Shown piece after piece: positions 11,752 through 62,548 of a DNA stretch of 64,000 nucleotides (position 1 is its first letter; each line of letters opens with the position of its first letter). The notes below the pieces were generated by a model. That model made no database searches and was not told where the DNA came from. It was given only the letters and a program-made list of their open reading frames with translations. The DNA comes from Dechloromonas denitrificans (GTDB lineage: Bacteria; Pseudomonadota; Gammaproteobacteria; Burkholderiales; Rhodocyclaceae). Where the stretch lies: NCBI RefSeq assembly GCF_020510665.1, contig NZ_CP075187.1:3231001-3295000 (forward strand), given 5' to 3'. Position numbers and translations under genes: made by a program.

Positions 11752-13185
11752 CTAATGCACAGTACACACCATGCACGGATCAAACGAACGTACAACGTGC
11801 TGGATTGTAGGCGCGGCCTCTTCCCCGGCGGGCAGGCCGATCAGCGCCTGTTCGAGCGGGCCGGGCTGGCCGCTGCCGTCGTGCGGCGAGAAATTCCAGG
11901 TGGTCGGCGCGATGATCTGGTAGCGATCTATTCGGCCGCGCCTGAACGACAACCAGTGCCCGAGGCTGCCACGGGCGGCCTCAACCAGCCCGACACCCTC
12001 GCCGGAATCCGGCAAGACAAGTTGATTGCAAAACGGATCACCCGGCACGATGGCTTTCACCCAATGCTCCATTGCCGGAACGACCGTCGCCAGCTCGATC
12101 ATCCGCGCAACGACTCGTGCGGTGACGCTGGCGCCATGCCGGCAGACCAGATCGCGGGCCAATGGCTGCCCGGCCACAACCTGGCGAGCCAATGCGCCTG
12201 TTTCGGCGACCTGGCCGGCATAGCGCGGCGCCTTGCACCAGGTATATGCCGCGGCCTTGTTGGCATCGACCACGGTTTCACCCAAGGCCGGCGGCAAGGG
12301 CTCGCCCTGAGCCAGCCACGCATGGCTGACATCTTCCGCAATTTTGGCCGGATCAAGGCGGTCGACCGCAGCAGTCTCGCCGTATTCCGGTGACCAGACG
12401 CCGCCGGCAAACAAGTCGTAGGCCCCGTAGGACAAAAACAGGTCCTTCGCCCGCCCCACGCTTTCCAGCCGAAGATCGTAAGCCGCATTCAGGAAAGCGG
12501 GAAAATCGCCCGCCCTGCCGGCAGCCCAGTCGCGCAATGCCGACTCGGAAGCCAATGCACTGAATTGCTCAAGGCTGCCGCCCAGCAAGGTCGTTTCAAG
12601 AAAACCCCGAAACTCGCGCAATAGCGCCAGCACGCGGATGCGCTCTGCGGCGGTCATCGCCTTGGTGCTGCCGCCAGGCTGCAATGCCAGCGAATGCGGC
12701 CAGCGCCCGGCAAGAAAACCGATCAGTTTGAAGAACCCGGCGCGCGCACCCAGTGCAGCCGGCGCCGCACTCCCCTTGATGGCGGCAAAACGGCTGGCTA
12801 CATCGGGGTACCAACTGCGGTCGACATAGCTCGCACGGGCAAAATCCGGCATGAAAAAAAGATAAAAATGGGTCAGATGATCGGCCAGATTCTCGGTCGC
12901 CAGGATCAGGCTTTGCGCCAGTTTTCCGTTGGCCGGCATCTGAACGCCACTGGCACTGGCTAGCGCGGCCGCTGCGGCAGCCGACTGGGCAATCGAGCAG
13001 ATTCCGCAGATACGCGGCACGATGGCCAATGCATCCTGGGCAACCCGGCCGACCAGCAATTGTTCGAAACCGCGAAACAGCGGCGAATTGACGCGCGCCG
13101 CAACAACCTGGCCGGCGTCGACATCGAGACTGACCTCAAGATCGCCCTCGACGCGATTGAACGGCCCGACCAGAACGCGCTTCAT
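11752..13185 (-). CDS. hoxC: Regulatory (H2-sensing) [NiFe]-hydrogenase large subunit HoxC/HupV
   Basis: 477 residues. The N-terminal nickel motif is RICGICSIAQS (Cys60, Cys63), where Gln67 stands in place of the His of catalytic enzymes. The C-terminal motif DPCMVCTVH is the very end of the protein, so there is no extension for a maturation protease to remove. Both are hallmarks of the sensory HoxC/HupV group. With HoxB it forms a cytoplasmic H2 sensor that signals through the HoxJ kinase to HoxA. Overlaps hoxB by four bases (ATGA); cotranscription with hoxX-hoxA-hoxB is very likely. Confidence 0.95.
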   Translation of the reverse strand: MKRVLVGPFNRVEGDLEVSLDVDAGQVVAARVNSPLFRGFEQLLVGRVAQDALAIVPRICGICSIAQSAAAAAALASASGVQMPANGKLAQSLILATENLADHLTHFYLFFMPDFARASYVDRSWYPDVASRFAAIKGSAAPAALGARAGFFKLIGFLAGRWPHSLALQPGGSTKAMTAAERIRVLALLREFRGFLETTLLGGSLEQFSALASESALRDWAAGRAGDFPAFLNAAYDLRLESVGRAKDLFLSYGAYDLFAGGVWSPEYGETAAVDRLDPAKIAEDVSHAWLAQGEPLPPALGETVVDANKAAAYTWCKAPRYAGQVAETGALARQVVAGQPLARDLVCRHGASVTARVVARMIELATVVPAMEHWVKAIVPGDPFCNQLVLPDSGEGVGLVEAARGSLGHWLSFRRGRIDRYQIIAPTTWNFSPHDGSGQPGPLEQALIGLPAGEEAAPTIQHVVRSFDPCMVCTVH

Positions 13186-14177
13186 TTCCCTGCCTTCTTG
13201 ACGGCCGGACGAATCACCGGATGATCGACCACGGCATTCTCCCGCACCCGTTTCGGTGTCGCCGATTTGGACAATGCGGCCAGCGCGACAAACCAGGCTT
13301 TCGGCATGTCGGTCGGCAAACCGATCGGAATCCCGGCCAGCTTGGGCGTTTCCTGGAAAGGATGGCCCGGCGCTTCAAACCCCGGTTCGGTACAGGCAAT
13401 GCAGGCAAAACCACCGCGCAGACAGGAGCCGCTGCCGTTCCAGGGGCGGATATTGCAATCGGCATGCGCCTGCGTCCCCTTGCACCCCAGGTTCTCCATC
13501 AAACAGCCCAGGTCGGACTGCTTTTCGGCACTCGCCTTGAATTCGTAGAATTCATTGCGCGAACAACCGTGATGAACCAGTTGATCGGCATAGAGCAGCG
13601 GACGCCCGTAAGCATCGAGATCGCTCGCGGCCAGCCCTTCAAACGCCAGCTTTTCCAGCGTATCGACGACCCAACCGGGGTGCACCGGACAACCGGCAAT
13701 ATTGACCACCGGCAAGCCGCCATTTGACTGAAAACCCTTGCCGAGCAAGCCGCCCGGCTCATCGGTATCGAACTGCAGGCCGCAGGCCTCAAGCGGATTC
13801 CCCGGCGTACTGGCCGAAAACCCGCCGTAGGCCGTGCACGAACCAATGGCGAAAACCCAGCGGGCGTGGCGCGCCAGGCGCTCGACCCACTCGGTCATCG
13901 GCCGGCCGCTCCCGGCCATCAGATGAAACTTTCCACTCCCGTTCGGGCCGCGCAACATCGCCCCTTCAATGCACAGGACATCGAAGGACAAGCGCCCTTC
14001 TGCGCAGTCTTCAAGAATCTGCAAGGCCGCATCGCCGCTCTCCAGCGACAAAGCCGGATGCCAGACAAACTCGATACCGGCGTCACGCAACTCATCGAAC
14101 AACGGTCGCGGCTCGGCGCACAGCAGCGACTGCGTACAACCGCCACAGCCGCCGCTTTGCAACCAGAGCAGCTTCAT
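13182..14177 (-). CDS. hoxB: Regulatory [NiFe]-hydrogenase small subunit HoxB/HupU
   Basis: 331 residues, starting directly with the proximal-cluster region LWLQSGGCGGCTQSLLC and with no Tat signal peptide, so the protein stays in the cytoplasm. Further iron-sulfur ligands appear in AIGSCTAYGG, NIAGCPVHPGW, HHGCSRNEFYE, GCLMENLGCKGT, ADCNIRPWNGSGSCLRGGFACIACTEPGF. Only the standard cysteines occur around the proximal cluster (GGCGGCTQS), unlike the oxygen-tolerant HoxK elsewhere in this window. Electron-transfer subunit of the H2 sensor; four-base overlaps tie it to hoxA and hoxC. Confidence 0.95.
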   Translation of the reverse strand: MKLLWLQSGGCGGCTQSLLCAEPRPLFDELRDAGIEFVWHPALSLESGDAALQILEDCAEGRLSFDVLCIEGAMLRGPNGSGKFHLMAGSGRPMTEWVERLARHARWVFAIGSCTAYGGFSASTPGNPLEACGLQFDTDEPGGLLGKGFQSNGGLPVVNIAGCPVHPGWVVDTLEKLAFEGLAASDLDAYGRPLLYADQLVHHGCSRNEFYEFKASAEKQSDLGCLMENLGCKGTQAHADCNIRPWNGSGSCLRGGFACIACTEPGFEAPGHPFQETPKLAGIPIGLPTDMPKAWFVALAALSKSATPKRVRENAVVDHPVIRPAVKKAGK

Positions 14178-15652: not shown

Positions 15653-17325
15653 TCGGGAATTATCCAGTTCAGGTCTCGATGCTTGGCTAAATGGCGCGGC
15701 GTCCAGGAATGCGGCGAACGCTCGACAAAATGATAGCGCGCCACATGGTAGGACGGATCGAATCCATAGAAATTGCGCTGCATTTCGTGCAACTCGGCCG
15801 CCCGGTAAGCGGCCAGCGGTCGCAACGCTTCATCGGCCCGACGTTTGGCCTGCTTGGCCGCCACGCGTTCTGAAAAATCACCGGCCGCCGCCAATTCGGC
15901 AGCTCGCCGGGCAACATCAACGGCAAATCCGGGGGCCGGCAAACAGGCATCGTAGAAACCCAGGCGAACCGACTCGGCCGCCGTCATCGGCAAGCGGTGG
16001 CGCATGATCGCACGGGCACCGTCTTCGCCGACGCGCGGCGGCAACAGGTAAGTCCAGAACTCGGAGCCGAACAGGTTGCCCATGTTCTTGTAATGCGGGT
16101 TGAGCATCACCCCGTCGCGGACCCAGACAAAATCGGTGGCGCGCGCCAGAAAGCAACCGCCCGCCCCGCTATTGGCCCCGACGGCTGCCACGGTCAACTG
16201 GGTTTCGCAGCGCAAAATGGCTTCGGCCAGATCGTCGATCGCATTGATGTTGGCCCAGGACTCATCGGCCGGGCTGGCCGCCGCTTCGATGGTGTTGAGG
16301 TGAATGCCGTTCGACCAGAAATCGCTACCGCCACGCAGGACGATAACCCGCGTCGGCTGCCCGGCCGCCCAGTTGAAGGCCTCGGTCAGACGCCGGCATT
16401 GCCCGCTGCTCATTGCACCGTTGTAGAACTCGAAACTGAGGAAACCAACGCCACCGGCAGCTTCGTAGCTGATGTCCTGCCAGGTGGGCTGCGTCGATTT
16501 CAAATAGCCGGCCAACGGCATCTCGGGCAATTCAGCCGCCTCGGGGAAGGCCTGCGTCGCCGGCAACTTGATGCCGCCCTGGCGTTTGACATGGCCGATC
16601 CACACGGCACCATCAAGCGTCGCCCGACAGATGGCCGTTTCACGCCGGGCAATCAGGCTGCCCGGCGCACCGCGCAACACCGCTTCCGGCCAGGCATCAA
16701 ACAAGTGGCAGGGTTGGCCGAACAGCTGATCGGCCACACCGGGGAAACCATCGGCAGCGTTGATCCGGGCCAGCACGGCAGCACTGTCCTGACTTGCCCA
16801 GTCGATCGCCCGTTCAGCCTGACGCAGGGTTGAATGCGCCTGCCCGGCAATGCGTTGCGGTTTGAAATCGGGCTGCTGGCAACGGGCGACCGCAGCAAGG
16901 ACGGCACGCACTGCCGCTTCGGTCACTTCATTGCGGTAGATCGACGATTTCTTGGCCCGGCGCATCGGGAATTCAGCCGAGGCCCAGACCGGGCCGGCAT
17001 CCATTTCGGCCTCAGCCTGCAGCACCGTCACACCCCAGGTCGGCAGATCCTTCTGGATCGCCCAATCGAGCGCCGACGGACCACGGTCGCCCGGTACGCC
17101 CGGGTGAACGACGAGGCAGCGATGCCGGGACCAGATCGATGCCGGAATCGCCCGTTTGAGAAAAGGCGCCAGGATCAGATCGGGACGGAACAGACGCACG
17201 GCTTCTTCACTGACCGAATCGGCAATATCGAACTCAATGCTGATTTCATGGCCGATTTGACTCAATTCGCAAAAGAGCCGTTGAGCGAGACTGTTGAAGC
17301 TGTGGGTCAGGAAGAGAATTCGCAT
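15649..17325 (-). CDS. hoxX: Hydrogenase maturation factor HoxX/HypX (CO-ligand synthesis)
   Basis: 558 residues with two domains. The N-terminal formyl-tetrahydrofolate transferase-like half (about 1-270) has HPGVPGDRGPSALDWAI and a late AGQAHSTLRQAERAIDW. The C-terminal enoyl-CoA hydratase-like half (about 280-540) has LRGGSDFWSNGIHLNTIE and VGANSGAGGCFLA. HypX makes the carbon monoxide ligand of the NiFe active site from formyl-THF when oxygen is present, in line with an oxygen-tolerant enzyme here. The ATG at 17325 matches the family N-terminus (MRILFLTHSF). First gene of the hoxX-A-B-C unit, with a 169-bp gap to the opposite-strand small gene. Confidence 0.93.
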   Translation of the reverse strand: MRILFLTHSFNSLAQRLFCELSQIGHEISIEFDIADSVSEEAVRLFRPDLILAPFLKRAIPASIWSRHRCLVVHPGVPGDRGPSALDWAIQKDLPTWGVTVLQAEAEMDAGPVWASAEFPMRRAKKSSIYRNEVTEAAVRAVLAAVARCQQPDFKPQRIAGQAHSTLRQAERAIDWASQDSAAVLARINAADGFPGVADQLFGQPCHLFDAWPEAVLRGAPGSLIARRETAICRATLDGAVWIGHVKRQGGIKLPATQAFPEAAELPEMPLAGYLKSTQPTWQDISYEAAGGVGFLSFEFYNGAMSSGQCRRLTEAFNWAAGQPTRVIVLRGGSDFWSNGIHLNTIEAAASPADESWANINAIDDLAEAILRCETQLTVAAVGANSGAGGCFLARATDFVWVRDGVMLNPHYKNMGNLFGSEFWTYLLPPRVGEDGARAIMRHRLPMTAAESVRLGFYDACLPAPGFAVDVARRAAELAAAGDFSERVAAKQAKRRADEALRPLAAYRAAELHEMQRNFYGFDPSYHVARYHFVERSPHSWTPRHLAKHRDLNWIIPE

Positions 17326-17707: not shown

Positions 17708-17713
17708 ATTCTC

Positions 17714-20676: not shown

Positions 20677-23010
20677 TCAACATTGCTTTTCCTTGAACAT
20701 GCGCCGTGCCACCCAGGCCTGACCAAGCGCCAAACCACCATCGTTCGGCGGCGCCTGACGGGCTTCAAGCAGGGTCAATCCGGCCGCAGCGAGCAGCGGG
20801 CGCAAGGCATCGAGCAGCACTGCATTCATTGCGCAGCCGCCAGCGAGCGCGATTTTCCCTGATTTTTCGCGGTCGACCGCAGCAAACGGGGTATTTTCGA
20901 TGATCACCCATTGTGCCAGCCCGGCGGCCAGCGTGGCGTGGAACAGCGCGGCACCGTAGGCCGGATCGGGGCAATCGAGCAAAGCGGTCAGTAGCGGCGT
21001 CAAATCGAGTACGCCATCGCTGATCAAAAAGCCGTCCGCCAAGGCGTCGACCGGGCCATGCCCGGCGGCCAGCCCTTCCAGCGCCATCGCCGCCTGCCCC
21101 TCATAACGCACTTCACCATGCAAGCCGAGCAAGGCAGCAGCGGCATCGAACCAGCGCCCGAGACTGCTGGTCGGCGGACAGCGCAACTGGCGGTCGAGCA
21201 TGGTCAGCAGCAGTCCGGCATCGCGCCCCGGATGGCAACGCGCCAGCCAGTCGGGAATGCGTTCGGCCAGACCCGCGCCGTGCAGGAAGGAAACCGCCAT
21301 CCGCCACGGCTCGCGCGCCGCACGATCGCCTCCGGGCAAACACAGCGTCTTGAGGTGACCGAGGCGCTGAGCGGAAACGCCGTCCAGACGCAGCAACTCA
21401 CCACCCCACAAGCCCCCCTCCGGCCCCAGCCCGACGCCGTCGATGGCCAAACCGGTTAGCGGCGGGTTGGCGCCATGTTCGGCACAGATCGCCGCCAGAT
21501 GCGCCTGATGATGCCCGACAGCCAGCGCCGGAACGCCGAACTCGTCAGCCAAAGCCAGAGCCAGCCGGGTCGAGGCGAAATCGGGGTGCAAATCATGGGC
21601 AATCAATTCGGGACGCACATCGAGAATGGCCAGCAGATGCCTGACCGTTTCTTCCAGGAAACCGATGGCCGCGACATTGTCGAGGCTGCCGACATGCTGC
21701 GACAGGTAGGCTTCGCCGCCTTTCATGACGCAAACCGTGTTTTTCAGGTAGCCGCCCAGCGCCAGCACCGTCGGGCCGCTCTCGGCCAGGTGAATCGGCT
21801 GCGGCACATAGCCGCGCGCCCGGCGAATGAAGTGTGTCCCCTGTGGCCCGGCGCGCAGCACCGAGTCATCGCAGCGCATGACGATTGCCCGGTCATGGAC
21901 CAGCAAGGCATCGGCAATCCCGGCCAGACGCTCGACGGCCTCGGCATTGTCGATGACCAGCGGCTCGCCGTGCGGGTTGGCGCTGGTCATGATCAGCAGC
22001 ATTTCGGCCGGCTCATCCAGCCACGCCGTGCCAGCCGGCCGACCGGCCGCTTCATGCCAGAGCAGCAAATGCAATGGCGTGGACGGCAACATCACGCCGA
22101 GCCAGGCCAGTTCCGGGGCAATGCCGGGCAATTCGTCAGCCGCCTTGGGGCAAAGCACGATCGGCGCCGCCGGCGAGCGCAACAGATCAAGTTCGGCCGG
22201 GTTGATCCGGGCATAGGCAGCGAGTGCCGCCGGATTCAGGCCCATCACCGCAAAGGGCTTGGCTTCGCGCTGTTTGCGTCGGCGCAGTTCGGCGACGGCC
22301 GCCGCATTGCGCGCATCGCAGGCCAGATGAAAACCGCCCAGCCCCTTGAGCGCGACGATCTTTCCGGCTTGCAGCAAAGCCAGGCTTGCAGCCAGCGGAT
22401 CGCCGGCCAGTGCCTTGCCCGTCGCATCGAGCAAGGCGAGTCGCGGCCCGCAGGCCGGGCAGCAGGTGGTTTCGGCATGAAAACGGCGGTCGACCGTGAA
22501 ATTTGTCGCATCCGTCGCCGGCAGTTCGCCATATTCCTCGGCGCAGACAGGGCACAGCGGGAATTCCGCCAGACTGGTTTGCGCCCGGTCATAGGGAATG
22601 CCGCGGCTGACCGTGAAACGCGGACCGCAATGCGTGCAGGTGGTGAAGGCGTAGCGCCAGCGCCGACTCTGCGGATTGCAGATATCGGCGATGCAGGCCG
22701 GGCAGATGGCCGCATCCGGCCCGATGGCGGTGCGAATCTCGCCGGGCGCGCTGTCCAGAATGCTGAAACCTTCGCCGAGCACTTCGATCGGTTCGATATC
22801 GATCCCGTCGATGCGCGCCAGCGGCGGCTTGTCGCGCTGCAGCCGGGCGACGAATTCGGCCACGCCGGGACCGTCGACCGCGACGCTGACACCGCCGCCA
22901 TCGTTGCGCACCCAGCCGCGCAAACCCAGTTCCCTGGCCAGCCGCCAGACGCAGGGACGAAACCCGACGCCTTGAACGAGACCGCGAATGCGGATCAGCT
23001 GGCCGCTCAT
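20677..23010 (-). CDS. hypF: Carbamoyltransferase HypF
   Basis: 777 residues. The acylphosphatase-like domain (about 3-90) shows RIRGLVQGVGFRPCVWRLA. Two zinc fingers are CPACIADICN...CTHCGPRF and CPVCAEEYGE...CCPACGPR. The YrdC-like domain contains LKGLGGFHLACDA and KPFAVM. The C-terminal Kae1-like domain carries HHQAHLAAICAEHG and ALAGGCAMNAVL. It transfers the carbamoyl group from carbamoyl phosphate to the C-terminal Cys of HypE, the first step of cyanide ligand synthesis. ATG 23010 lies 7 nt after the hypB stop. Confidence 0.97.
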   Translation of the reverse strand: MSGQLIRIRGLVQGVGFRPCVWRLARELGLRGWVRNDGGGVSVAVDGPGVAEFVARLQRDKPPLARIDGIDIEPIEVLGEGFSILDSAPGEIRTAIGPDAAICPACIADICNPQSRRWRYAFTTCTHCGPRFTVSRGIPYDRAQTSLAEFPLCPVCAEEYGELPATDATNFTVDRRFHAETTCCPACGPRLALLDATGKALAGDPLAASLALLQAGKIVALKGLGGFHLACDARNAAAVAELRRRKQREAKPFAVMGLNPAALAAYARINPAELDLLRSPAAPIVLCPKAADELPGIAPELAWLGVMLPSTPLHLLLWHEAAGRPAGTAWLDEPAEMLLIMTSANPHGEPLVIDNAEAVERLAGIADALLVHDRAIVMRCDDSVLRAGPQGTHFIRRARGYVPQPIHLAESGPTVLALGGYLKNTVCVMKGGEAYLSQHVGSLDNVAAIGFLEETVRHLLAILDVRPELIAHDLHPDFASTRLALALADEFGVPALAVGHHQAHLAAICAEHGANPPLTGLAIDGVGLGPEGGLWGGELLRLDGVSAQRLGHLKTLCLPGGDRAAREPWRMAVSFLHGAGLAERIPDWLARCHPGRDAGLLLTMLDRQLRCPPTSSLGRWFDAAAALLGLHGEVRYEGQAAMALEGLAAGHGPVDALADGFLISDGVLDLTPLLTALLDCPDPAYGAALFHATLAAGLAQWVIIENTPFAAVDREKSGKIALAGGCAMNAVLLDALRPLLAAAGLTLLEARQAPPNDGGLALGQAWVARRMFKEKQC

Positions 23011-24459: not shown

Positions 24460-25348
24460 GATTCAATTCCACGCTATACGGCACACAGGGATCGAGCGCC
24501 AGAATGGCCTGATCGAGCGCCAGACGCGCCTCGGCTGCATGAGCAAAGGTCCGCCCGGCCAGTAACGCGGTCAACGCGCCGGCATCGGCAAAAAGCGCAT
24601 CGGTCGGCGCATCGACACGGTAATTGAGCACCCGTCCATCGACAAGGTGCACCGCATGGGTCAGCACACCGCGCGCCGTCAGCGTCTGCCCGACGCCCCA
24701 AGCCGCCTGACCGGCAGCCGCAATCGGAAAGGGGGCACCGGCAGCCAGCGCCTGCCCGGCCCGTTCAACCTCAGCCAGACGGGCACGATATGCGGCGACG
24801 ACCGTTGCCGGACGATGTACGGCCGGCGGCGATGCGGCATTGCCCTGCCAGAAAGCCAGCCAGTCCTCGGCATTCAGCAAGGGGCTGGAGCAATCCACCG
24901 GCGCGGCGCGGTCGACCAGCTTTTCAAGGCATTTTTCACTGACATCGAGCAAGGCCGTATCGAGCAAATGCCGGGTCGCGCTGATGCACTCACTGCCCTG
25001 TCGCCCCCGCCAGGCGACAAAAGCTTCCTTGGCCGGCGCCAGGCCGAGGGCCAGCGGCCAGTCGAGCAACAGACGCCAGAGATTCTCGTGCAGTACCTCG
25101 ATCCACAACTCGGCATCATCGACCGGCCGGCGCGACTCGCCCTGTGCTGCGGCCAGCGCTGCCTGTGCCGCCGCACGCTGGGCATGGGCACACAAGGTAT
25201 AAAGATAGGGAACCGTCTTGACCACCGCCTCGGGAATCTGGTCGATGAACAAGCGGGTCACGGCCGGTCGCCGGAGCTCGACGTCAATCGCGGCCAGATG
25301 CGCGCCCTGCAGCTGCGCCCGAACTGTCAGCAAACCGGTTGAGGTCAC
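24452..25348 (-). CDS. hoxV: Hydrogenase assembly scaffold HoxV/HupK
   Basis: 298 residues. A shortened relative of the large subunit: a remnant of the first nickel motif (YLYTLCAHAQRAA) and a C-terminal [13 protein letters not shown] in which the second Cys of DPCxxC is lost. HoxV/HupK is thought to carry the iron cofactor to the large subunit of the membrane-bound enzyme. It begins with GTG inside a four-base overlap with hoxT and ends overlapping hypA. The order hoxR-hoxT-hoxV matches Ralstonia. Confidence 0.88.
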   Translation of the reverse strand: MTSTGLLTVRAQLQGAHLAAIDVELRRPAVTRLFIDQIPEAVVKTVPYLYTLCAHAQRAAAQAALAAAQGESRRPVDDAELWIEVLHENLWRLLLDWPLALGLAPAKEAFVAWRGRQGSECISATRHLLDTALLDVSEKCLEKLVDRAAPVDCSSPLLNAEDWLAFWQGNAASPPAVHRPATVVAAYRARLAEVERAGQALAAGAPFPIAAAGQAAWGVGQTLTARGVLTHAVHLVDGRVLNYRVDAPTDALFADAGALTALLAGRTFAHAAEARLALDQAILALDPCVPYSVELNHA

Positions 25349-26888: not shown

Positions 26889-27343
26889 GCGCAAGCTCCT
26901 GGCTGATCGGCCGAACGAACGGGGATGCCGATGGGTTTGGGTTGAGCCGGCCCGGTCAGCAGGCGGGTCACTTCATTCTGGTATTCGAACCAGTCACGGA
27001 TGCCGTTGAGCATGCCGACAAACTGGCCATCACGCAGAAAGACGACGGCAGGCGCACGAGCCACGCCGTATTGCTTCATCAACCCGGCGCTGACCAGATG
27101 ATCGGCGACCCGGCGGGAAATCTGTTCGCCAAGCGGCTTCAGGGCTTCCGGCAGGATGACGCAGGCGTCGAGCACTTCCAGGTTGCGCTGCGGATCATCG
27201 GTCAGCAGCAAGGCGGTCAGCCCGGCAGGAAAATCGGGGTTGCTGCGGTCGACACGTTGAAAACCGTGTTTCTGGACCATCCGGCTGATTGAAGTATCAA
27301 GCCGGTCGAGCGAAGTCAGCCCGGGGGCAAGTTGCAGCGTCAT
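26885..27343 (-). CDS. hoxO: Thioredoxin-like hydrogenase chaperone HoxO/HupG
   Basis: 152 residues of the HyaE/HoxO family. A thioredoxin-like fold without the redox CxxC: LTALLLTDDPQRNLEVLD, VILPEAL, then YGVARAPAVVFLRDGQFVGMLNGIRDWFEY. It binds the Tat signal peptide of the small subunit together with HoxQ to prevent premature export. Overlaps hoxL and hoxQ by four bases each. Confidence 0.92.
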   Translation of the reverse strand: MTLQLAPGLTSLDRLDTSISRMVQKHGFQRVDRSNPDFPAGLTALLLTDDPQRNLEVLDACVILPEALKPLGEQISRRVADHLVSAGLMKQYGVARAPAVVFLRDGQFVGMLNGIRDWFEYQNEVTRLLTGPAQPKPIGIPVRSADQPGACA

Positions 27344-37396: not shown

Positions 37397-38005
37397 ATGC
37401 TTGAAGCAGACAACCTCGAATGCGTACGTGGCGAACGCCGCCTGTTCTCAGGCGTCGGGTTTCGTCTGGAGGCCGGCGAATTGCTTTATCTGCAAGGCAA
37501 AAACGGGGCCGGCAAGACCAGTCTGCTGCGCATGCTGATCGGCCTGTTGCCGCCGGAAGCCGGGGAAATCCGCTGGCAGGGCAAGCCGATCGGCAGTGAC
37601 GATTTTCGTGCCGACCTCTGCTACCTCGGCCACCTGAACGCCATCAAGGAAGAATTGACGCCGCTAGAAAACCTGCTCGCGGCAGCACGCCTGGCCGACA
37701 CCTTGTTGTCCGAAGACGATGCCCTCGACGCGCTGGAACAAGTCGGCCTGGCCGGACGCGAAGACCTCGCCTGCAAATATCTTTCGCAAGGCCAGAAACG
37801 TCGGGTCGCACTGGCTCGCCTGGTCACCGAAAAACGCCCCCTGTGGATTCTCGACGAGCCCTTTGTGGCGCTCGATGTTGCTGCGGTCGACTGGCTGGCC
37901 GGCATCATTTCCGGCCACCTCCAGCGCGGCGGACTGGCGGTCATGACAACGCACCAGCTGGTTAGCATTCCGGCCGGGCAGGTTCGCGAATTGCGCCTCG
38001 GTTAA
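37397..38005 (+). CDS. ccmA: Haem-exporter ATP-binding protein CcmA
   Basis: 202-residue ABC ATPase: Walker A GKNGAGKTSLL, signature YLSQGQKRRVALARL, Walker B LWILDEPFVALD. With CcmB, CcmC and CcmD it releases holo-CcmE in System I cytochrome c biogenesis. The ATG at 37397 is preceded by an in-frame TTG. First gene of the ccmABCDEFGHI-napF unit. Confidence 0.96.
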   Translation: MLEADNLECVRGERRLFSGVGFRLEAGELLYLQGKNGAGKTSLLRMLIGLLPPEAGEIRWQGKPIGSDDFRADLCYLGHLNAIKEELTPLENLLAAARLADTLLSEDDALDALEQVGLAGREDLACKYLSQGQKRRVALARLVTEKRPLWILDEPFVALDVAAVDWLAGIISGHLQRGGLAVMTTHQLVSIPAGQVRELRLG

Positions 38006-42675: not shown

Positions 42676-43160
42676 ACTTCCGCGCCCTGATTGCTGCTTT
42701 CGTTTTTGCCCATTTCATCGGGTCGACCGCCGCCCTTGCCTCGGCAGCCAATGAAGCTGCACTGGCCGCCGATCCGGTTGCCGAAAAGCGTCTGCAAAAA
42801 CTTTCCGAAGAACTCCGCTGCCTGGTCTGCCAAAACCAGACCATCGCCGACTCCAATGCCGAGCTGGCACAGGATCTGCGCCGCGAAGTTCGCAGCATGA
42901 TCAAGGATGGCAAGTCGGATAAGGAAATTGTCGACTTCATGGTCACCCGCTACGGTGATTTCGTCCTCTACCGCCCGCCAGTCAAGGGGATTACGCTGTT
43001 GCTCTGGGGCGGCCCGATTGCCCTGATGCTGTTCGGCATCCTGGCATTGCGCAACTATCTGCGCCGCCGTGCCAGCCGGATTAACGCCGAGGACAAGCCG
43101 CTGTCGGCTGCTGAAGCCAGCCGCGCCGAGGCGCTGCTCAAGGAAATCGATCAAAAATGA
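42672..43160 (+). CDS. ccmH: Cytochrome c biogenesis protein CcmH (CcmL-type)
   Basis: 162 residues with a signal peptide (ending SAALASA-like region), the redox motif LRCLVCQNQTIADSNAELAQDLR, and a C-terminal membrane helix (LLLWGGPIALMLFGILAL). This is the short CcmH type; the TPR part is encoded separately as ccmI. Resolves mixed disulfides with the apocytochrome. Confidence 0.95.
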   Translation: MNFRALIAAFVFAHFIGSTAALASAANEAALAADPVAEKRLQKLSEELRCLVCQNQTIADSNAELAQDLRREVRSMIKDGKSDKEIVDFMVTRYGDFVLYRPPVKGITLLLWGGPIALMLFGILALRNYLRRRASRINAEDKPLSAAEASRAEALLKEIDQK

Positions 43161-44002: not shown

Positions 44003-44482
44003 ATGGTCGATCTGGCGCGGCGCGGCTTCTTTCGCGGTCGACCGCGCCCAAAGGCCGAAATCCGCCCACCCTGGGCGCTCGCCGAAGCCGCTTTCATCGA
44101 TGCCTGCACCCGCTGCAACGATTGCCTGGGCGCCTGCCCGGAAGCCATTCTGATTGCAGGTGACGGCGGCTACCCGACCGTCGATTTCAGGCGCGGCGAA
44201 TGCACCTTCTGCGGCGACTGTGCCCGTACCTGCCAGCCCATGGCACTGAACCCCGAAACCCAGAGCTCGCCTTGGCCGTACAAGGCAGTCATCAGCCCAG
44301 CCTGTCTGCCGCACAAGGGGGTCGAATGCCGTGTTTGCGGCGACTTCTGTGATGCTCGCGCCATCCGCTTCCAGCCACGCCTCGGCGGCAGCCCTTTACC
44401 GGAAATCGATCACGAACAATGCAGCGGCTGCGGCGCCTGCGTTGCCGCCTGCCCGACACAGGCCATCGCAATTCAGCAATAA
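44003..44482 (+). CDS. napF: Ferredoxin-type protein NapF
   Basis: 159 residues with three 4Fe-4S motifs: CTRCNDCLGACPEAI, CTFCGDCARTCQP and CSGCGACVAACPTQAI, plus a further Cys group CRVCGDFCDA. The basic N-terminus LARRGFFRGRPR is typical of NapF. NapF assists maturation of the periplasmic nitrate reductase NapA in the cytoplasm. It follows ccmI by 3 nt, so it would share the low-oxygen FNR promoter; no other nap gene is in the window. Confidence 0.9.
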   Translation: MVDLARRGFFRGRPRPKAEIRPPWALAEAAFIDACTRCNDCLGACPEAILIAGDGGYPTVDFRRGECTFCGDCARTCQPMALNPETQSSPWPYKAVISPACLPHKGVECRVCGDFCDARAIRFQPRLGGSPLPEIDHEQCSGCGACVAACPTQAIAIQQ

Positions 44483-44562: not shown

Positions 44563-45495
44563 ATGACCCAAGAAAAATTCCGCCTCGTCACCCGCAGCGA
44601 CTTTGACGGCCTGGTTTGCGCCGTACTGCTCAACGAACTGAACCTTATCGACGACATCAAGTTCGTCCATCCGAAAGACATGCAGGATGGCAAGGTCGAC
44701 ATCACCTCGCGCGACATCACGACCAACCTGCCGTATGTGGCTGCTGCCCACCTGGCTTTCGACCATCACCTCTCGGAAACCATCCGCAATACCGGTGAGC
44801 GCAAGAACCACATCATCGAGGCCGACGCTCCTTCGGCGGCACGGGTCGTCTACAACTACTACGGCGGCAAACAGGCTTTCCCGAATATCACCGACGACAT
44901 GATGGATGCGGTCGACAAGGCTGATTCGGCACAATTCAGCCGCGATGAAATCCTCAACCCGACCGACTGGGTACTGCTCAATTATCTGATGGATGCACGT
45001 ACCGGCCTGGGACGTTTCCGCGAATTCCGGATCAGCAACTACGCGCTGATGATGGACCTGATCAAATACTGCCGGAATCACAGCATCGCCGAAATCCTTG
45101 CCCTGCCTGACGTCAAGGAACGGGTCGAACTTTATTTCGACCAGGCCGAGAAGGCCAAGGAACAGCTCCAGCGCTGCACGACCGTACATGGCAACCTCGC
45201 CGTGCTCGATTTGCGTAACGAGGAAACGATCTGGGCGACCAATCGTTTCATGATCTATGCCCTGTTCCCGCAAACCAGCATTTCAATCCACATTCTGTGG
45301 GGCGTTCAGAAGCAGAACACGGTCTTTGCAACCGGCAAGTCGATCCTCGACCGCAGCAGCAAGACCAATGTCGGCGAGCTGATGTTGCAATATGGCGGTG
45401 GCGGGCATCATGCGGCAGGGACCTGCCAAGTCGACAATGATCAGGCAGAAGCCACGCTGCAGGCGCTGATCAAGCGCATCAACGCCGACGGCTGA
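44563..45495 (+). CDS. DHH/DHHA1-family phosphoesterase
   Basis: 310 residues. Metal-binding motifs of the DHH family are RSDFDGLVCA, the DHH triad in AFDHHLSET, and DAVDKADSAQF. The DHHA1 substrate motif is GGGGHHAAGTCQV. Such enzymes cleave short RNAs, pAp, cyclic dinucleotides or polyphosphate; the exact substrate cannot be set from sequence alone. CGGAGA precedes the ATG. Unlike RecJ or GdpP it has no extra domains. Stop codons of this gene and of the opposite-strand gene abut at 45495/45496. Confidence 0.85.
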   Translation: MTQEKFRLVTRSDFDGLVCAVLLNELNLIDDIKFVHPKDMQDGKVDITSRDITTNLPYVAAAHLAFDHHLSETIRNTGERKNHIIEADAPSAARVVYNYYGGKQAFPNITDDMMDAVDKADSAQFSRDEILNPTDWVLLNYLMDARTGLGRFREFRISNYALMMDLIKYCRNHSIAEILALPDVKERVELYFDQAEKAKEQLQRCTTVHGNLAVLDLRNEETIWATNRFMIYALFPQTSISIHILWGVQKQNTVFATGKSILDRSSKTNVGELMLQYGGGGHHAAGTCQVDNDQAEATLQALIKRINADG

Positions 45496-47363: not shown

Positions 47364-47414
47364 CCCAAAAAATGGAATGCTGCGGTCAACCGGCCATAAC
47401 GGCCGGATTCCGGA

Positions 47415-52157: not shown

Positions 52158-54308
<2,151 letters not shown>

Positions 54309-54477: not shown

Positions 54478-55143
54478 ATGACCCGTATTGTTCCCACCGC
54501 GCTCTACCAGGAAGTTGCCGAACGTTTGCGGCAACGCATCTTTGCGCACGAGCTGACGCCTGGCACCTGGATCGATGAACAGAAGCTGGCCGAGCAATAC
54601 GGTATTTCCCGGACACCGCTGCGCGAAGCCCTCAAGGTTCTCGCCTCCGAGGGGCTGGTCGAGTTGAAGCCACGCCGCGGCTGCTACGTTACGGAAATTT
54701 CCCGCCGCGACCTCGACGACATTTTCCCGCTCATGGCCATGCTGGAGGGACGCTGTGCCTCGGAAGCCGTCCGTCGCGCCAAGGCGGCCGACATGACGGC
54801 CCTGAAGGCCATCCATGAACAACTGGAGTCGGCTGCCCGCGAAGGCAGAATTGATGCTTTTTTTGAAGCCAACCAGGAATTTCACAGGAAAATCCAGGAA
54901 TTGTCCGGCAACCGCTGGCTGCTTTCGGTCATCCAGGATCTTCGCAAGGTGCTCAAGCTTTCTCGCCTGCACTCGCTGTCACTCGAAGGCCGCCTGCAGC
55001 AATCGCTTGATGAACACCGGGTAATCATGGCCGCCCTTGAAGCCGGCGATAGCACCAAGGCCGAAAAGCTGATGCACGACCACCTGCTTTCCGGCCGGGA
55101 AGCGCTGGCAAAGATTCAGGACCCTGCCGTCAAAACAGCCTGA
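54478..55143 (+). CDS. GntR-family regulator (FadR/FCD type)
   Basis: 221 residues. N-terminal winged helix-turn-helix (about 5-75): LYQEVAERLRQRIFAHELTPG, EQYGISRTPLREALKVLASEGLVEL, RGCYV. The C-terminal FCD ligand domain (about 85-210) shows metal-binding FHRKIQELSGNRW and DEHRVIMAALEAGD. FCD regulators sense small organic acids. Being divergent from the propionyl-CoA genes it is a candidate propionate or methylmalonate regulator. ATG 54478 is the start matching the family; upstream in-frame starts would run through the promoter. Confidence 0.88.
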   Translation: MTRIVPTALYQEVAERLRQRIFAHELTPGTWIDEQKLAEQYGISRTPLREALKVLASEGLVELKPRRGCYVTEISRRDLDDIFPLMAMLEGRCASEAVRRAKAADMTALKAIHEQLESAAREGRIDAFFEANQEFHRKIQELSGNRWLLSVIQDLRKVLKLSRLHSLSLEGRLQQSLDEHRVIMAALEAGDSTKAEKLMHDHLLSGREALAKIQDPAVKTA

Positions 55144-55152
55144 TTTCTGGCG

Positions 55153-55171
55153 TTGACCGCAGCACGGTCAA
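55153..55171. terminator. Inverted repeat between convergent genes, built on the dispersed motif
   Basis: TTGACCG-CAGCA-CGGTCAA: a 7-bp stem with a 5-base loop in the 24-bp space between the GntR gene and the chemoreceptor gene, overlapping the latter's stop. No T-run follows, so termination is uncertain. One arm plus loop is a full copy of TTGACCGCAGCA, the motif repeated elsewhere in this window. Confidence 0.4.
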
Positions 55172-59144: not shown

Positions 59145-59213
59145 GTAATTTGTAATTACCGAAAAATCGGCGGCTGTATTATATCTTATATAAGACATTC
59201 ACGATGCGTGAAT
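59145..59213. promoter_or_regulatory. Three palindromes in the DUF485-actP / crotonase intergenic region
   Basis: GTAATT-TGT-AATTAC (59145-59159), TCTTATATAAGA (59184-59195) and ATTCACG-ATG-CGTGAAT (59197-59213) are perfect inverted repeats within 70 bp between two divergent genes. A TATAAT-like element (TTATAAT, 59224-59230) lies downstream for the crotonase gene. At least one is likely to be an operator; which protein binds is unknown. Confidence 0.45.
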
Positions 59214-59260
59214 ATCCCTGGGCTTATAATTCAATCCATTAAAAACAACACTTTGCGCAC

Positions 59261-60037
59261 ATGGCTACGGTCGACCTCTCCACAAACGGCGAAATCGCCA
59301 CCCTGACACTCAACAATCCCGGCAAGCTGAATGCCATCAATCTGGCCATGTGGCAGGACCTGGCGGGCATCATGGGCAAGCTGGCGGTTGACCGCGACAT
59401 CCGCTGCATCGTGCTGCGCGGCGCCGGGCACGATGCCTTTGCCGCGGGCGGCGATCTGGAAGAATTCGTCACGGCACGCGCCACGCTGGAACAAGCCCTG
59501 CACTACCACGAGCAAGTCGCACTGGCCCTGAATGCCATCGCCGATTGCCCGCACCCGACCGTGGCCCTGATCCAGGGAGCCTGCATCGGTGGCGGCCTCG
59601 AAATCGCCGGCGTCTGCGACCTGCGCATCAGCAACGAATCGGCCCGCTTCGGCGCGCCGATCAATCGACTCGGCTTTTCGATGTATCCGGGCGAGATGGA
59701 GGGCTTGCTGAAACTGGCCGGCGCGGCCGTGATGAAGGAGATTCTGCTTGAAGGACGCATTCTCAACGCCACCGAAGCCTATGAAAAAGGGCTGGTGACC
59801 CGCGTTGTTCCTGATCCGCAGGTCGAAGATGAAGCCTATGCCACGGCACGTCGCATCTGTGCCGGCGCCCCGCTGGTAGCCGGCTGGCACAAACAGTGGA
59901 TTCGCCGCCTGCAAAACGGTCGACCGCTGAACGATGAAGAAAAAGCCGCATCGTTCGCCTTCCTCGACACAGAGGACTATAAGGAAGGCCTGAGCGCCTT
60001 CCTTGAAAAACGCAAACCCGCGTTCAAGGCGCAATAA
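59261..60037 (+). CDS. Enoyl-CoA hydratase/isomerase (crotonase) family protein
   Basis: 258 residues with the crotonase fold: LTLNNPGKLNAINLAMWQDL, oxyanion-hole segments AFAAGGDLEEF and GACIGGGLEIAGVCDLRIS, then ARFGAPINRLGF. The first catalytic Glu is present (Glu114). The position of the second Glu of true hydratases (PE motif after FGxP) is Ile134, so plain enoyl-CoA hydration is doubtful. Isomerase, hydrolase or decarboxylase activity are alternatives. Stands alone on the plus strand and converges on mdcH. Confidence 0.85.
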   Translation: MATVDLSTNGEIATLTLNNPGKLNAINLAMWQDLAGIMGKLAVDRDIRCIVLRGAGHDAFAAGGDLEEFVTARATLEQALHYHEQVALALNAIADCPHPTVALIQGACIGGGLEIAGVCDLRISNESARFGAPINRLGFSMYPGEMEGLLKLAGAAVMKEILLEGRILNATEAYEKGLVTRVVPDPQVEDEAYATARRICAGAPLVAGWHKQWIRRLQNGRPLNDEEKAASFAFLDTEDYKEGLSAFLEKRKPAFKAQ

Positions 60038-60041
60038 GGCA

Positions 60042-60062
60042 AGCCGGCGCGATCAGCCGGCT
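60042..60062. terminator. Possible hairpin between crotonase gene and mdcH
   Basis: AGCCGG and CCGGCT form a 6-bp stem in the 15-bp convergent gap and over the mdcH stop codon. There is no T-run, so it is at best a weak terminator. Confidence 0.35.
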
Positions 60063-60994
60063 GATTCGACCCAGCGGACGATACCGTCGACACTGCGAAA
60101 ATCATCGCAGGCCCGGACGGGGATATCGGGAGCCAGTTCGGCAAACAGCCGGCTCAATGCATTGCCCGGGCCAATTTCAAGGACGGCATCGGGCTGCATT
60201 TCAGCCACGGCCTGCAGACAGGCCGCCCAATCAAGCGGCGTGCAGATCTGCCGGGCCAGAGCGGCGAGGGCCGGTCGGACACTGCGGGCCGCCGTTGCGT
60301 CGATCGCGCTGAGCACAGGAAATGCCAGGCGCTGATCGGGCAGCAAATCGAGGCTTTTCGCGAAGTCGACCGCAGCACGCGTCAGTTGCGCCGTATGCGA
60401 CGGCGTGCGCACCGCCAGATGAACCAGCCGGCTGGCACCGGCTGCGGCAAATTGATCCGCCACCGCCAACAAACCGGATCGGGCACCGGCCACCACCAGA
60501 TGACGCGGTGCATTGCGAATGGCGACAGCCAGGCCGGCGGCCACCGCCAATGATTCGACCTGCGCCTCGTCGAGGCCGAGCACGGCGAGCATGCCCTGTT
60601 CGCCAGCGACGGCCGCATCCATCAGTGCAGCACGTTCGGCGCATAAATCCAGCCCCTGACTAACCGAAAAAGCACCGGCCGCACTGCAGGCCGCCATTTC
60701 ACCCAGCGAATAGCCGGCGGCGCAGATCGGCCGCGGCAGACGAGGCTGCAACTGCCGCCAGAGCAGCATTTGCTGGGCGAAGATCAGCGGCTGGGCAATG
60801 CTGTTTTTAGCCAGTTTTTCGGCGTCGCCCCCAGGGCTAGCCGGTGCTTCCAGGCTCGCGGCAAGGGGATCGGCAATACCAGGCAGCACCCGTGACAGCG
60901 CCTCACCCAGCTCACCCGCGACGCCCGCCTGAACCTGTTGCCAGTGGGCTGGGCCTTGCCCGCCCTGGCCGCTGAAGAGGAGGGCAAGGCGCAT
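60053..60994 (-). CDS. mdcH: Malonate decarboxylase malonyl transferase MdcH
   Basis: 313 residues of the FabD-like acyltransferase family: LLFSGQGGQ, the nucleophile in AAGYSLGEMAA (Ser about 97), RNAPRHLVVAG, the His in TPSHTAQL and the late EIGPGNALSRL. It loads malonyl onto the thiol of the malonate decarboxylase acyl carrier. Last gene of the visible mdc unit, 2 nt after mdcB. Confidence 0.93.
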   Translation of the reverse strand: MRLALLFSGQGGQGPAHWQQVQAGVAGELGEALSRVLPGIADPLAASLEAPASPGGDAEKLAKNSIAQPLIFAQQMLLWRQLQPRLPRPICAAGYSLGEMAACSAAGAFSVSQGLDLCAERAALMDAAVAGEQGMLAVLGLDEAQVESLAVAAGLAVAIRNAPRHLVVAGARSGLLAVADQFAAAGASRLVHLAVRTPSHTAQLTRAAVDFAKSLDLLPDQRLAFPVLSAIDATAARSVRPALAALARQICTPLDWAACLQAVAEMQPDAVLEIGPGNALSRLFAELAPDIPVRACDDFRSVDGIVRWVESAG

Positions 60995-60996
60995 GG

Positions 60997-61890
60997 TCAG
61001 GCCGGAGCGTCGAATTCGGCCAGGAAGAGCGTGACGCCGAGCAGGTCGGCACTCCCGCCGGGGCTCAGGCGACGCACCACGAAGTCGCGGTCGATCGCTG
61101 CCGCACGGGCCCGCCAGTCAGCGGCCAGCACACCACCGCCAGCGAGGAAATCTGCCGCGGCACGCCGGCCGTAGTTCAACCCATCTCGCCCGCCACGCCA
61201 CAGCAGGTTGGTATCGTCCAGTTCGGCGATCAAGGCGAACAGCGCCTGCATCGCCGCCAATTCAGCGTCACCGGTTGCTGCCAGCACAGCACGATAGGCC
61301 GGCAAGCCGACGTCAAGCACGGCCGGGAAACCGGTGGCGGCCTGCTGGCGCGCGCCGCCACTGCCGTCGCGCCGGGCGACGATCAGGCCGTGGCTGAGCG
61401 GTGCGTCGGTACTTGCCCCGCTCAGGCCAGCCAGAATTTCAGCCCCCCAGTCGCGATGGACAACAGCACAGGCCGATTCGGCGTCAAGTTCCACGCCCTC
61501 AGCCTGTAAAACGCCGAGTGCCGCACAGAGCAAGCCAAGATTGAAAATCGCCCCGCGATGGGTGTTGACCGCAGCAGTCGCCGCCAGCATCTCGGCTTCG
61601 GCCACGATACCGAGCGCCTGCAATGGGGCGAAGCTTGGCCGCTGCAAACCGCAGGCGGCGATGGCTGGAAAGTAGCCGCGCAAGGCCTGCAGGCTGCGCA
61701 TGAAGGTGGTGAAATCCATGTCGGGATGACTGCCACTGCCGGTCGGTCCGACCAGACCGGGCTTGCCGTCGAGCGCCACTTCGCGGTACAGGCTGCGAAT
61801 CGCCAGCCGGCCGATACGGGCGGCAAACAACTCGCCGACTGGCGCGGCGACCGGCTGTGGACGGGCAAGTAACAGGGCGCGTTCAGGCAT
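60997..61890 (-). CDS. mdcB: Triphosphoribosyl-dephospho-CoA synthase MdcB
   Basis: 297 residues of the CitG/MdcB family: REVALDGKPGLVGPTGSGSHPDMDFTTFMRSL, NTHRGAIFNLGLLCAA, GLSGASTDAPLSHGL, and DTNLLWRGG. It makes the precursor of the 2'-(5''-triphosphoribosyl)-3'-dephospho-CoA prosthetic group of the acyl carrier MdcC. Overlaps mdcG by 8 bases. Confidence 0.94.
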   Translation of the reverse strand: MPERALLLARPQPVAAPVGELFAARIGRLAIRSLYREVALDGKPGLVGPTGSGSHPDMDFTTFMRSLQALRGYFPAIAACGLQRPSFAPLQALGIVAEAEMLAATAAVNTHRGAIFNLGLLCAALGVLQAEGVELDAESACAVVHRDWGAEILAGLSGASTDAPLSHGLIVARRDGSGGARQQAATGFPAVLDVGLPAYRAVLAATGDAELAAMQALFALIAELDDTNLLWRGGRDGLNYGRRAAADFLAGGGVLAADWRARAAAIDRDFVVRRLSPGGSADLLGVTLFLAEFDAPA

Positions 61891-62548
61891 GGCAAGGCTC
61901 CGGTAACAAGCAGGCAGTCAAAGTGTGCAGCGGCCACAGGCCGACCTCATGCTCGCCCTTGACCAGAACCTGGGCATTCGGCCGCGTGAGCTGCCCGGCG
62001 ATTTCGCGCCAGGCAGCTGCATGGCCGCCTGGAAAGCGCAACTCGCCATCCAGCCGGCAGGGCAGTTCGGCAGCGGCCTGCTCCAGGGCCGGCAAGATAG
62101 TGGCCAATTGGCCGACATGCTCGATATCGCAGATCAGGTCGATGTCCGAATCGGGATGACGATAACTTTCCCCACTCAACACCTCCCAGGCCAGCGAACC
62201 ATAGACGCCCAGTCGGAGCGAACAGGCAGCCGCCTGCTCGGCCAGCCTGGCCAGCACGGCAGCTTCTCCGGCCGGCAGGCGAGACAAGCTGTCGGCCAGG
62301 GCGAGCGGCGGCCGAATCTCGTCAATGCTGCTGCGGTCGACACGGATCGACAGCTTTTTTCGCTGCAACCGTGTCGGCAGACTAAGACCGAGCAGCAAGT
62401 TCCCGCCCCCCGGCTGGCGGGCGGCAACCAGCGGATGGCCTGCCGCGATCCACTGCCGTGCTGCCAACCAGTACGCCCCGCCCGGCTCGGCACAGGGCGT
62501 CGCAAAAGCTGCGTCCGGCGCGAGATAGACGAGATCGTGGCGGCGCAT
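61883..62548 (-). CDS. mdcG: Phosphoribosyl-dephospho-CoA transferase MdcG
   Basis: 221 residues, nucleotidyltransferase fold: GVYGSLAWEVLSGESY and the metal motif HPDSDIDLICDI, with an N-terminal MdcG domain (RRHDLVYL, LVAARQPG, LLLGLSLPTRLQRKKLSIRVDRSSI). Attaches the prosthetic group to a Ser of MdcC. ATG 62548 comes 4 nt after the mdcE stop. Confidence 0.92.
   Translation of the reverse strand: MRRHDLVYLAPDAAFATPCAEPGGAYWLAARQWIAAGHPLVAARQPGGGNLLLGLSLPTRLQRKKLSIRVDRSSIDEIRPPLALADSLSRLPAGEAAVLARLAEQAAACSLRLGVYGSLAWEVLSGESYRHPDSDIDLICDIEHVGQLATILPALEQAAAELPCRLDGELRFPGGHAAAWREIAGQLTRPNAQVLVKGEHEVGLWPLHTLTACLLPEPCHA

Follow-up and report, generated by a model that had tools for sequence, protein, structure and literature searches.

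A candidate genus-specific DNA uptake signal in the Azonexus/Dechloromonas group

The window analyzed here is a stretch of 64,000 nucleotides from Dechloromonas denitrificans, positions 3,231,001–3,295,000 of a genome (G000 in our numbering) that consists of one contig of 3,457,400 bases. A short motif recurs across it on both strands, which an earlier note on this DNA had described as the 10-mer GACCGCAGCA and had likened to the signals that some bacteria use to recognize their own DNA during uptake. The 10-mer is part of a composite signal of ~32 bases, which comprises a core, GTYGACCG (Y, C or T), a variable tail, an upstream AT box, and a weaker T-rich box. The signal is genuine and strong, abounds in a single genus among the genomes sampled, and formally has the traits of an uptake sequence. 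Judged from sequence, it quite likely marks DNA for genus-specific uptake in the Azonexus/Dechloromonas group and would then be the third signal of this kind, after the DNA uptake sequence (DUS) of the Neisseriaceae and the uptake signal sequence (USS) of the Pasteurellaceae.

Thirteen exact copies of GACCGCAGCA are present in the window, 8 on the + strand and 5 on the − strand, and all 13 stand where the earlier note had placed them. Dinucleotide shuffles of the window yielded a mean of 0.34 and a maximum of 2 copies (100 shuffles). The T[C/T] that was said to precede 12 copies is found before 12 of the 13, the exception being the copy at 16888, which follows GC, and the near-copies built on GTCGACCGCA were likewise confirmed, with 16 in the window versus 0.57 expected from a second-order Markov model. 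A genome-wide count, which might have refuted the excess, upheld it, with 362 copies (189 + 173) versus 10 (4 + 6) for the control, which in all genome counts was the same pattern read backwards. The excess of the 10-mer therefore stands, but the 10-mer as the unit does not, because the real signal is GTYGACCG together with AT boxes. GACCGCAGCA holds the commonest single tail of its species (43 of 228 sites); an upstream AT box accompanies 10 of the 13 window copies, and the whole composite pattern 7 of them.

The strict form of the composite pattern, with the tail left free, was defined as WWWN3SSN11GTYGACCG (W, A or T; S, G or C), and 29 such sites lie in the window, from 508 to 63234. The full site at 12342–12373 (+) contains the exact 10-mer and consists of an AT box, GTCGACCG, and the tail CAGCA; it overlaps its dyad partner, an opposite full site at 12354–12385 (−). 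Full sites with the exact 10-mer are also found at 47378–47409 (−) and 55133–55164 (+), both most likely intergenic, and at 52781–52812 (+), 60346–60377 (+), 61545–61576 (+), and 62329–62360 (−); those beginning at 52781, 55133, and 61545 have the GTT form. Other exact copies of the 10-mer depart from the full pattern. The copy within 16866–16897 (+) has the AT box AAT and SS, with GGC in place of GTY. The copies within 20853–20884 (+) and 37879–37910 (−) have GTC and AT boxes (TTT and AAA, respectively) without SS, and the former overlaps its dyad partner, an opposite full site at 20865–20896 (−). The copy at 27241–27250 (−) follows GTC and has GAA where the AT box would be, while those at 33027–33036 (−), after TTC, and 45349–45358 (+), after CTC and on the sense strand of the gene at 44563–45495, are without an AT box. 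Full composite sites with other tails occur at 508–539 (+; tail CAAAA), 16186–16217 (−; TGGCA), and 32889–32920 (+; CAGCG); on the + strand at 997–1028, 3111–3142, 10769–10800, 21027–21058, 22854–22885, 41424–41455, 42703–42734, 59900–59931, and 63203–63234; and on the − strand at 3679–3710, 12813–12844, 24563–24594, 24904–24935, 41770–41801, 44030–44061, 44904–44935, and 59263–59294.

Genes were called with a home-made score of open reading frames (ORFs) and codons, which classed 79.5% of the DNA as coding; this value is probably too low, so that intergenic fractions are approximate. The two copies that had been called intergenic, at 47378 and 55155, most likely are, although a 170-amino-acid ORF in the mechanical list overlaps the first of them. 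The copies at 27241 and 62329 also fall outside the called genes, but larger ORFs are listed there. The claim that copies occupy different frames was only partly borne out in the window itself, where 8 of 9 genic copies are antisense and in one phase, the gene strand reading GCT GCG GTC (Ala-Ala-Val) and then mostly GAC or AAC, and one is sense. It does hold for a larger sample of the chromosome, composed of the window and 20 evenly spread 20-kb stretches (464 kb in total), in which 17 genic 10-mers are sense, 18 are antisense, and several phases are used.

The architecture of the signal emerged from alignment of flanking DNA. In 46 copies of the 10-mer (30 fetched loci plus the window), the three preceding bases are GTY (G in 96%, T in 98%, Y in 91%). 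Counted from the G of GACC, W is found in 89–98% at −22 to −20, positions −24 and −15 have G/C, and T is enriched less strongly at −12/−11. Dispersal of a repeat family or insertion sequence was considered and rejected, because these 46 contexts are alike over ~32 bases only. Among sites selected for the core alone, GTYGACCGC occurs 229 times in the 464-kb sample, versus ~36 expected from a fourth-order Markov model, and 158 of the 228 sites with usable flanks (69%) have WWW at the fixed place of the AT box, versus a genomic background of 7%. W makes up 80–88% of these unselected sites at −19 to −17 and 54–61% at −9 to −7, and the tails that follow include AGCA (43 sites), GACA (18), GGCA (17), and others. 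Alignment on GTHGACCGY (H, not G; 299 sites) gave a profile of [G/C]RWWW (R, A or G) at −21 to −17 from the G of GTY, C/G at −13/−12, weak W at −8/−7, and G/C at −3, then GTY GACCG and a tail in which C is preferred over T, followed by R and by C and A favored at +11 and +12. The consensus is thus [G/C]RWWW-N3-SS-N11-GTYGACCG-tail, the middle of the N11 segment being weakly T-rich, with the strong AT box 17–19 bases upstream of the core and the weaker T-rich box 10 bases nearer. Read on the opposite strand, the signal begins with a TG-Y-Y-GCGGTCRAC-like core, and the AT boxes come after it at distances of about one and two turns of the helix.

The strict pattern occurs 975 times in the genome (503:472 by strand), versus 23 for the control, at a density of ~1 per 3.5 kb, and 30 overlapping dyads around GGTCGACC were counted in the 464-kb sample. 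Most single-base variants of GTCGACCGC lose the AT box. Among variants with at least 10 sites, GTTGACCGC (71 sites, 54%), GTAGACCGC (11 sites, 55%), and GTCGACCGT (36 sites, 42%) keep the box and SS, and the remainder have both in 0–15% of sites; the small classes are noisy (GTCCACCGC, 5 sites, 40%; GGCGACCGC, 9 sites, 22%; two 2-site classes, 50%). The distant AT box is therefore tied to the exact core, and codons and composition do not explain the composite. Five other species have a similar architecture; because possession of the far AT box was the criterion by which their sites were chosen, only the other columns are free evidence, and in these G/C at −21 and −13/−12 and a T-rich stretch at −9 to −7 recur, the near box being faint in the close relative G222. 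The far box accompanies between 24 of 38 and 61 of 85 GTYGACCG sites in other species, with 38 of 76 in G147 and 30 of 63 in G268. As separate observations, two 12-mers with an expectation close to zero, TCAGCAGTCTGA and TTGGAGGCTTTG, occur 10 and 8 times, respectively, in the 464-kb sample, and CTGGTTCTGGTT is present in 31 copies in 100 kb of G222; all of these are possibly local repeats.

The excess was compared with synonymous shuffles of the 317 genes called in the 464-kb sample, in which the protein and the codon use were preserved (60 shuffles). Shuffled genes contained on average 1.9 copies of the 10-mer, 27.1 of GTYGACCGC, and 5.0 of the strict composite (largest values 5, 35, and 10), compared with 35, 176, and 115 in the real genes, which places the composite 23-fold above the shuffle and agrees with the view of the earlier note that codon preference alone is a poor explanation. 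Genic GTYGACCGC is divided between 88 sense and 86 antisense sites in several phases, with a phase bias of the kind that codons demand; the single antisense phase of most window copies still does not explain the excess.

Sequence constraint was assessed against G222, with which 152.5 kb were aligned at 94.9% identity, codon position being uncontrolled in these tests. The whole pattern is kept at 49 of 57 strict sites. Differences number 11/456 in the core, 2/171 in the AT box, 45/798 in the spacer, and 196/3,705 in the flanks; the core without Y plus the AT box differs less than the flanks (9/570 versus 196/3,705, p = 2e-5), as does the core alone (p = 0.006). Divergence of the spacer does not differ from that of the flanks, and that of the tail is not slowed (16/228). 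Unrelated control 8-mers are kept less often (17/22, 4/8, and 9/12).

Among the genomes sampled, the signal occurs in bulk in one genus only. The 13-mer GTYGACCGCAGCA exceeds 5 copies in none of 285 genomes from other genera of the family and reaches 70–326 copies in 8 of 12 sampled members of its own genus. The strict pattern likewise reaches no more than 34 sites in any of 194 genomes sampled outside the genus in the family or 368 in the class. Across 76 genomes of the genus, with cut-offs of 250 and 60 chosen after the counts were seen, 40 are rich (299–1,583 copies; control 10–37), 10 are intermediate (60–142; control 17–31), and 26 are poor (13–53; control 8–35). In one genome, G297, the few remaining matches are skewed by strand (2 forward versus 21 reverse). 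A protein of the window matches four loci in named genomes, and the close two (63% and 59% identity) belong to an Azonexus metagenome-assembled genome and to Dechloromonas sp. Dech2017, for which reason the label Azonexus/Dechloromonas group is used; the pieces of these two records that were fetched, 14.7 and 20.4 kb long, respectively, contain two strict sites apiece.

The tail differs from species to species, and the 13-mer with the CAGCA tail reaches at most 21 copies in 8 of the 40 rich genomes. Tail bases were counted in 18 chosen genomes, 16 of them rich. T is infrequent as the first tail base in the D. denitrificans genome (188/975, 19%), G222 (206/936), G348 (71/481), G268 (74/577), G343 (95/772), G338 (254/1,486), G345 (346/1,029), G299 (435/1,583), and G300 (404/1,534), and frequent in G147 (827/908, 91%), G341 (835/930), G331 (471/518), G322 (581/677), G304 (653/816), G336 (750/936), and G240 (883/1,191). 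As the second tail base, T accounts for 45% of sites in G299 (720/1,583) and G300 (685/1,534), compared with 1.5% in the D. denitrificans genome (15/975) and at most 5.2% in the other 13 rich genomes tested. Because both the first and the second tail bases differ between species, at least three tail dialects exist.

The history of the signal was traced on a midpoint-rooted tree of a single gene, comEC, from 38 genomes (22 rich, 7 intermediate, and 9 poor; G302 was dropped because its sequence is too short). G299 and G300 are sisters on this tree, and the T-tail genomes G304, G322, and G336 share a clade with G335 and the poor G312, with G147 and G240 placed elsewhere. The rich state requires 10 changes, 9 of them forced by well-supported branches; because 58 of 500 label shuffles do as well (mean, 12.4 changes), this state is barely clustered. 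The deepest split has rich species to either side, and one pair of sisters unites the rich G321 with the intermediate G357. In our reading, the signal was present in the ancestor and was lost repeatedly, the intermediate class representing erosion; repeated gain, transfer of comEC, or an artifact of the single-gene tree are possible alternatives.

Taken together, the genome-wide excess, the absence of polarity, the composite build of a protein-binding site, the limitation to one genus among the genomes sampled, the dialects, and the patchiness make an uptake-type signal the best supported interpretation, as the earlier note had proposed, although the 10-mer was not the right unit and the link to the pilins of the window is not supported in the form given there. 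Sequence comparison leads, with slightly less assurance, to a fuller account: the element is probably a third, independently evolved self-DNA uptake signal, ancestral to the genus, with at least three dialects and many losses, which would combine a USS-like build with DUS-like dialect evolution and whose receptor would not be the PilE/ComP-like pilin. According to passages of a 2025 article, only the Neisseriaceae and Pasteurellaceae are known to discriminate DNA at the uptake step (PMC12616744). The relevant parts of a 2026 survey of k-mers inside terminators, which covered thousands of genomes, name uptake motifs for those two families only (PMC13020248). In listings of the open-access literature, no report of such a signal was found for Rhodocyclaceae, Rhodocyclales, Dechloromonas, or Azonexus, reports elsewhere being possible, and none of the matches listed for the 10-mer itself (either strand) concerns uptake by its title.

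Much of the equipment that transformation requires is present, with ComEC in 71 of the 76 genomes of the genus and type IV pilins in D. denitrificans and other genomes surveyed. As a mechanism, the core and tail would be bound by a protein on the cell surface that belongs to the type IV pilus or competence machinery, and the AT boxes, about one helical turn apart, may ease bending or melting of the DNA during its passage. The cell would thereby favor DNA of its own group, recombination of the fragments taken up would keep renewing the sites (molecular drive), and species that lost uptake or changed its specificity would slowly lose them. Biased uptake followed by recombination that spreads sites has been argued for USS and DUS in portions of several articles (PMC1626085, PMC3630211, PMC1939737, PMC12616744).

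A number of observations weigh against an uptake signal. Strict sites are sparser than those of known USS and DUS, and they are spaced randomly or, at most, a little more evenly than that (gaps below 500 bases, 12.7% versus 18.1%, P = 0.047; below 1,000 bases, P = 0.19; coefficient of variation, P = 0.11). In the G222 comparison, core 8-mers without an AT box are kept as well as those with it (37/42 versus 49/57), so the box does not mark better-kept sites. No report of natural transformability was found for Dechloromonas or Azonexus in listings of the open-access literature. ComEC does not separate the signal classes, since nearly all poor species possess it, and comEC appears split or broken in the rich genomes G201, G322, G293, and perhaps G345, breaks that would have to be recent if the signal serves uptake. 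TIGR00426, which we take to be a ComEA-type model, matches in 75 of the 76 genomes and above its cut-off in 67, and it does not separate rich genomes from others either; five of the nine genomes without an above-cut-off match are rich (G268, G281, G315, G325, and G340), among them G281, a single contig that is 100% complete. In these five genomes ComEA is either too divergent for the model or absent. No gene that tracks the presence or dialect of the signal was found among the pilins, ComEC, and ComEA-type proteins compared.

The pilins also count on that side. The minor-pilin operon of the window (4547–10778, −), which encodes PilY1, FimT/GspH, PilV, PilW, PilX, and a PilE/ComP-like pilin, was considered as a source of the receptor, and the window was compared with 22 other regions, drawn from 20 genomes and 2 named records. 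Its PilE-like pilin matches ComP_DUS (E = 2e-13), and a pilin of this type (PF16732) is present in 70 of the 76 genomes, with and without the signal. Between D. denitrificans and G222, which share a dialect, the flanking HDOD and NikR proteins are 98% and 97% identical and those of the operon 47–66%. G300 has an operon like that of the window (51–61%) together with the dialect of G299, whose operon proteins are 26–44% identical to those of the window, and the poor G316 also has a window-like operon (50–59%). The link to minor pilins and FimT is thus not supported as the earlier note had put it, and the data are against the operon as a simple specificity gene, since it is decoupled from dialect; a few specificity residues could still be shared. 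By sequence, the operon pilin is far closer to Pseudomonas aeruginosa PilE (1e-15) than to ComP (2e-4). The best fold matches of its AlphaFold model (mean pLDDT 76.6, pTM 0.56) are a Shewanella type IV pilin, Neisseria meningitidis PilV, and P. aeruginosa PilE. The best 50 of 52 matches do not include ComP, so that by model and sequence the protein looks more like PilE than ComP.

In its own right, the operon (L129 in G222) is a hot spot of divergence or replacement. A second pilin pair near 2.736 Mb likewise led to no receptor, being found in both classes by a simple motif scan of 13 genomes, and inspection by eye of the matches listed for N_methyl in 13 genomes revealed no signal-specific pilin. 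Outside the pil operon, two types of long proteins that resemble pilins (~210–290 amino acids) and have an N-methylation motif are encoded (L145:8561–9217; relatives in L148–L159); in many species their genes are adjacent or separated by a few kb, and those scanned have no further Pfam domain.

Several species of the genus have a comEC whose N-terminal portion is absent or has been moved elsewhere, the break falling at nearly the same internal point each time (residue 236–261 of the D. denitrificans protein), as in L165 (G201) and L192 (G333). The two pieces of comEC are ~33 kb apart in G342 (C1:2218607 and 2251157; L193 and L194) and in G322 (C33:109525 and 143311; L198 and L199), as if a mobile element had repeatedly inserted itself into the competence gene. 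G345, G337, G358, and G359 appear to resemble these cases, judged from domain and frame lengths. The gene looks damaged in two poor species as well, matching in two frames in G312 (L187) and having a longest frame of 228 amino acids in G302 (L183). The insert of the rich G322 is devoid of the signal, with 0 strict sites in the 39 kb around and inside it, where about 6 would be average; a comparable 38.5 kb of G342 also has none, which says nothing, because the genome of G342 is poor.

Among other explanations, the one that fares best is that the sites are bound by an abundant intracellular protein, such as a nucleoid organizer or a chromosome-structuring or repair protein, with no part in uptake. 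We regard this as unlikely, if worth keeping in view. A core with phased AT boxes would suit any DNA-binding protein that bends DNA, all of the 20 sampled stretches but one (L035, which is AT-rich) contain strict sites, and both the fruitless receptor search and the five rich genomes without an above-cut-off ComEA-type match fit such a protein. Known chromosome-organizing sites, however, are few and cluster near the origin or terminus, unlike the ~1,000 sites spread over this chromosome, and the frequent changes of state among sisters, the tail dialects, and the site-free insert of G322 fit transformation better, none of these points being decisive.

A highly iterated palindrome like HIP1, or a repeat linked to methylation, for instance a restriction-modification site such as GTYRAC, is much less plausible still. 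GTYGAC, which the core contains, is a subset of the HincII site, and the overlapping dyads noted above also speak for this reading. Nevertheless, GTYAACCGC is not enriched (6 versus 6.8 and 0 versus 1.2 expected), the 6-mers GTCGAC (698 versus 703) and GTTGAC (219 versus 255) are near expectation, and the unit is asymmetric and ~32 bases long, with its AT box 17–19 bases away; of the methylation alternative raised in the earlier note, a HincII-type site is against the data.

A polar replication or recombination signal of the Chi-like or KOPS-like kind would also be short, over-represented, and chromosome-wide, but such signals need strong polarity. With the origin near 0 and the terminus near 1.8 Mb, as located by GC skew, the strict sites of the 464-kb sample show no replication polarity (65 leading versus 81 lagging), nor is there a strand bias over 40 rich genomes (17,164 versus 16,965), so that this alternative, also named in the earlier note, is largely refuted and has very little probability left. 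Preference for the codons of Ala-Ala-Val-Asp combined with base composition, to which the antisense Ala-Ala-Val of most window copies might point, can be dismissed almost entirely: it is refuted by the synonymous shuffles, and the intergenic copies, an AT box that lies outside the codons concerned and is lost with most single core changes, and the lack of bulk occurrence in sampled genomes of sister genera are against it.

If the signal does serve uptake, preference for self-DNA would be neither a quirk of mucosal commensals nor limited to two lineages, as the Azonexus/Dechloromonas group is usually isolated from water, sludge, and soil. The rich, intermediate, and empty species of one genus (40/10/26) would form a natural series on the gain and loss of self-preference, and the dialect groups, together with sister pairs such as G321/G357, would allow direct covariation tests for the protein that reads the signal.

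Compared with known systems, the signal has formal traits of the class of uptake sequences and differs from each of its known members. Known USS and DUS, in the accounts drawn on here, occur about once per kb, show no orientation bias, and have dialects, with AT segments in USS. The traits of the class that are found here are hundreds to thousands of copies on both strands, absence of orientation bias, and limitation to a taxon with dialects. HIP1 of cyanobacteria is a short motif that resembles the present signal in its high iteration, patchiness, and spread over the chromosome, but it is a plain palindrome and has neither the AT boxes nor the dialect tails found here.

The DUS of Neisseriaceae (GCCGTCTGAA type) shares with the signal the dialects that follow species groups and the overlapping dyad pairs, as in Simonsiella and Kingella. 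It is, however, continuous, with 10–12 bases, a CTG inner core, and no AT flanks, whereas the present signal is discontinuous, and its receptor is ComP, whereas the ComP-like pilin here is nearer PilE. The USS of Pasteurellaceae is closer in build, being discontinuous, with a core and two AT-rich segments on one side about a helical turn apart, without orientation bias, and with species types. Inner cores are given as CTG for DUS and GCGG for USS, along with AT-rich regions in USS, in passages of one article (PMC12616744). The main-dialect core of D. denitrificans, when reversed (TGCYGCGGTCRAC), contains GCGG, which is present in the C-tail dialect, whereas in T-tail genomes, G147 and G341 for example, ACGG takes its place at the majority of sites (ACGGTCRAC). 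The 9-base cores of the Hin type (AAGTGCGGT) and the Apl type (ACAAGCGGT) do not occur in the signal, which has GTYGACCG plus a tail, or TGCYGCGGTCRAC in reverse, and extends to GGTCRAC. Its strong AT box is the far one, ~20–24 bases after GCGGT, whereas that of USS is directly behind the core; its density by the strict pattern is ~0.3 per kb; and its genus, unlike the hosts of USS, is presumably betaproteobacterial. Membership in USS or DUS is not claimed; the core and the layout of the AT boxes differ from both. If cores that contain GCGG and AT boxes spaced by one helical turn have arisen convergently, this would suggest that such signals answer to a shared mechanical need, the bending or melting of DNA at the outer membrane.

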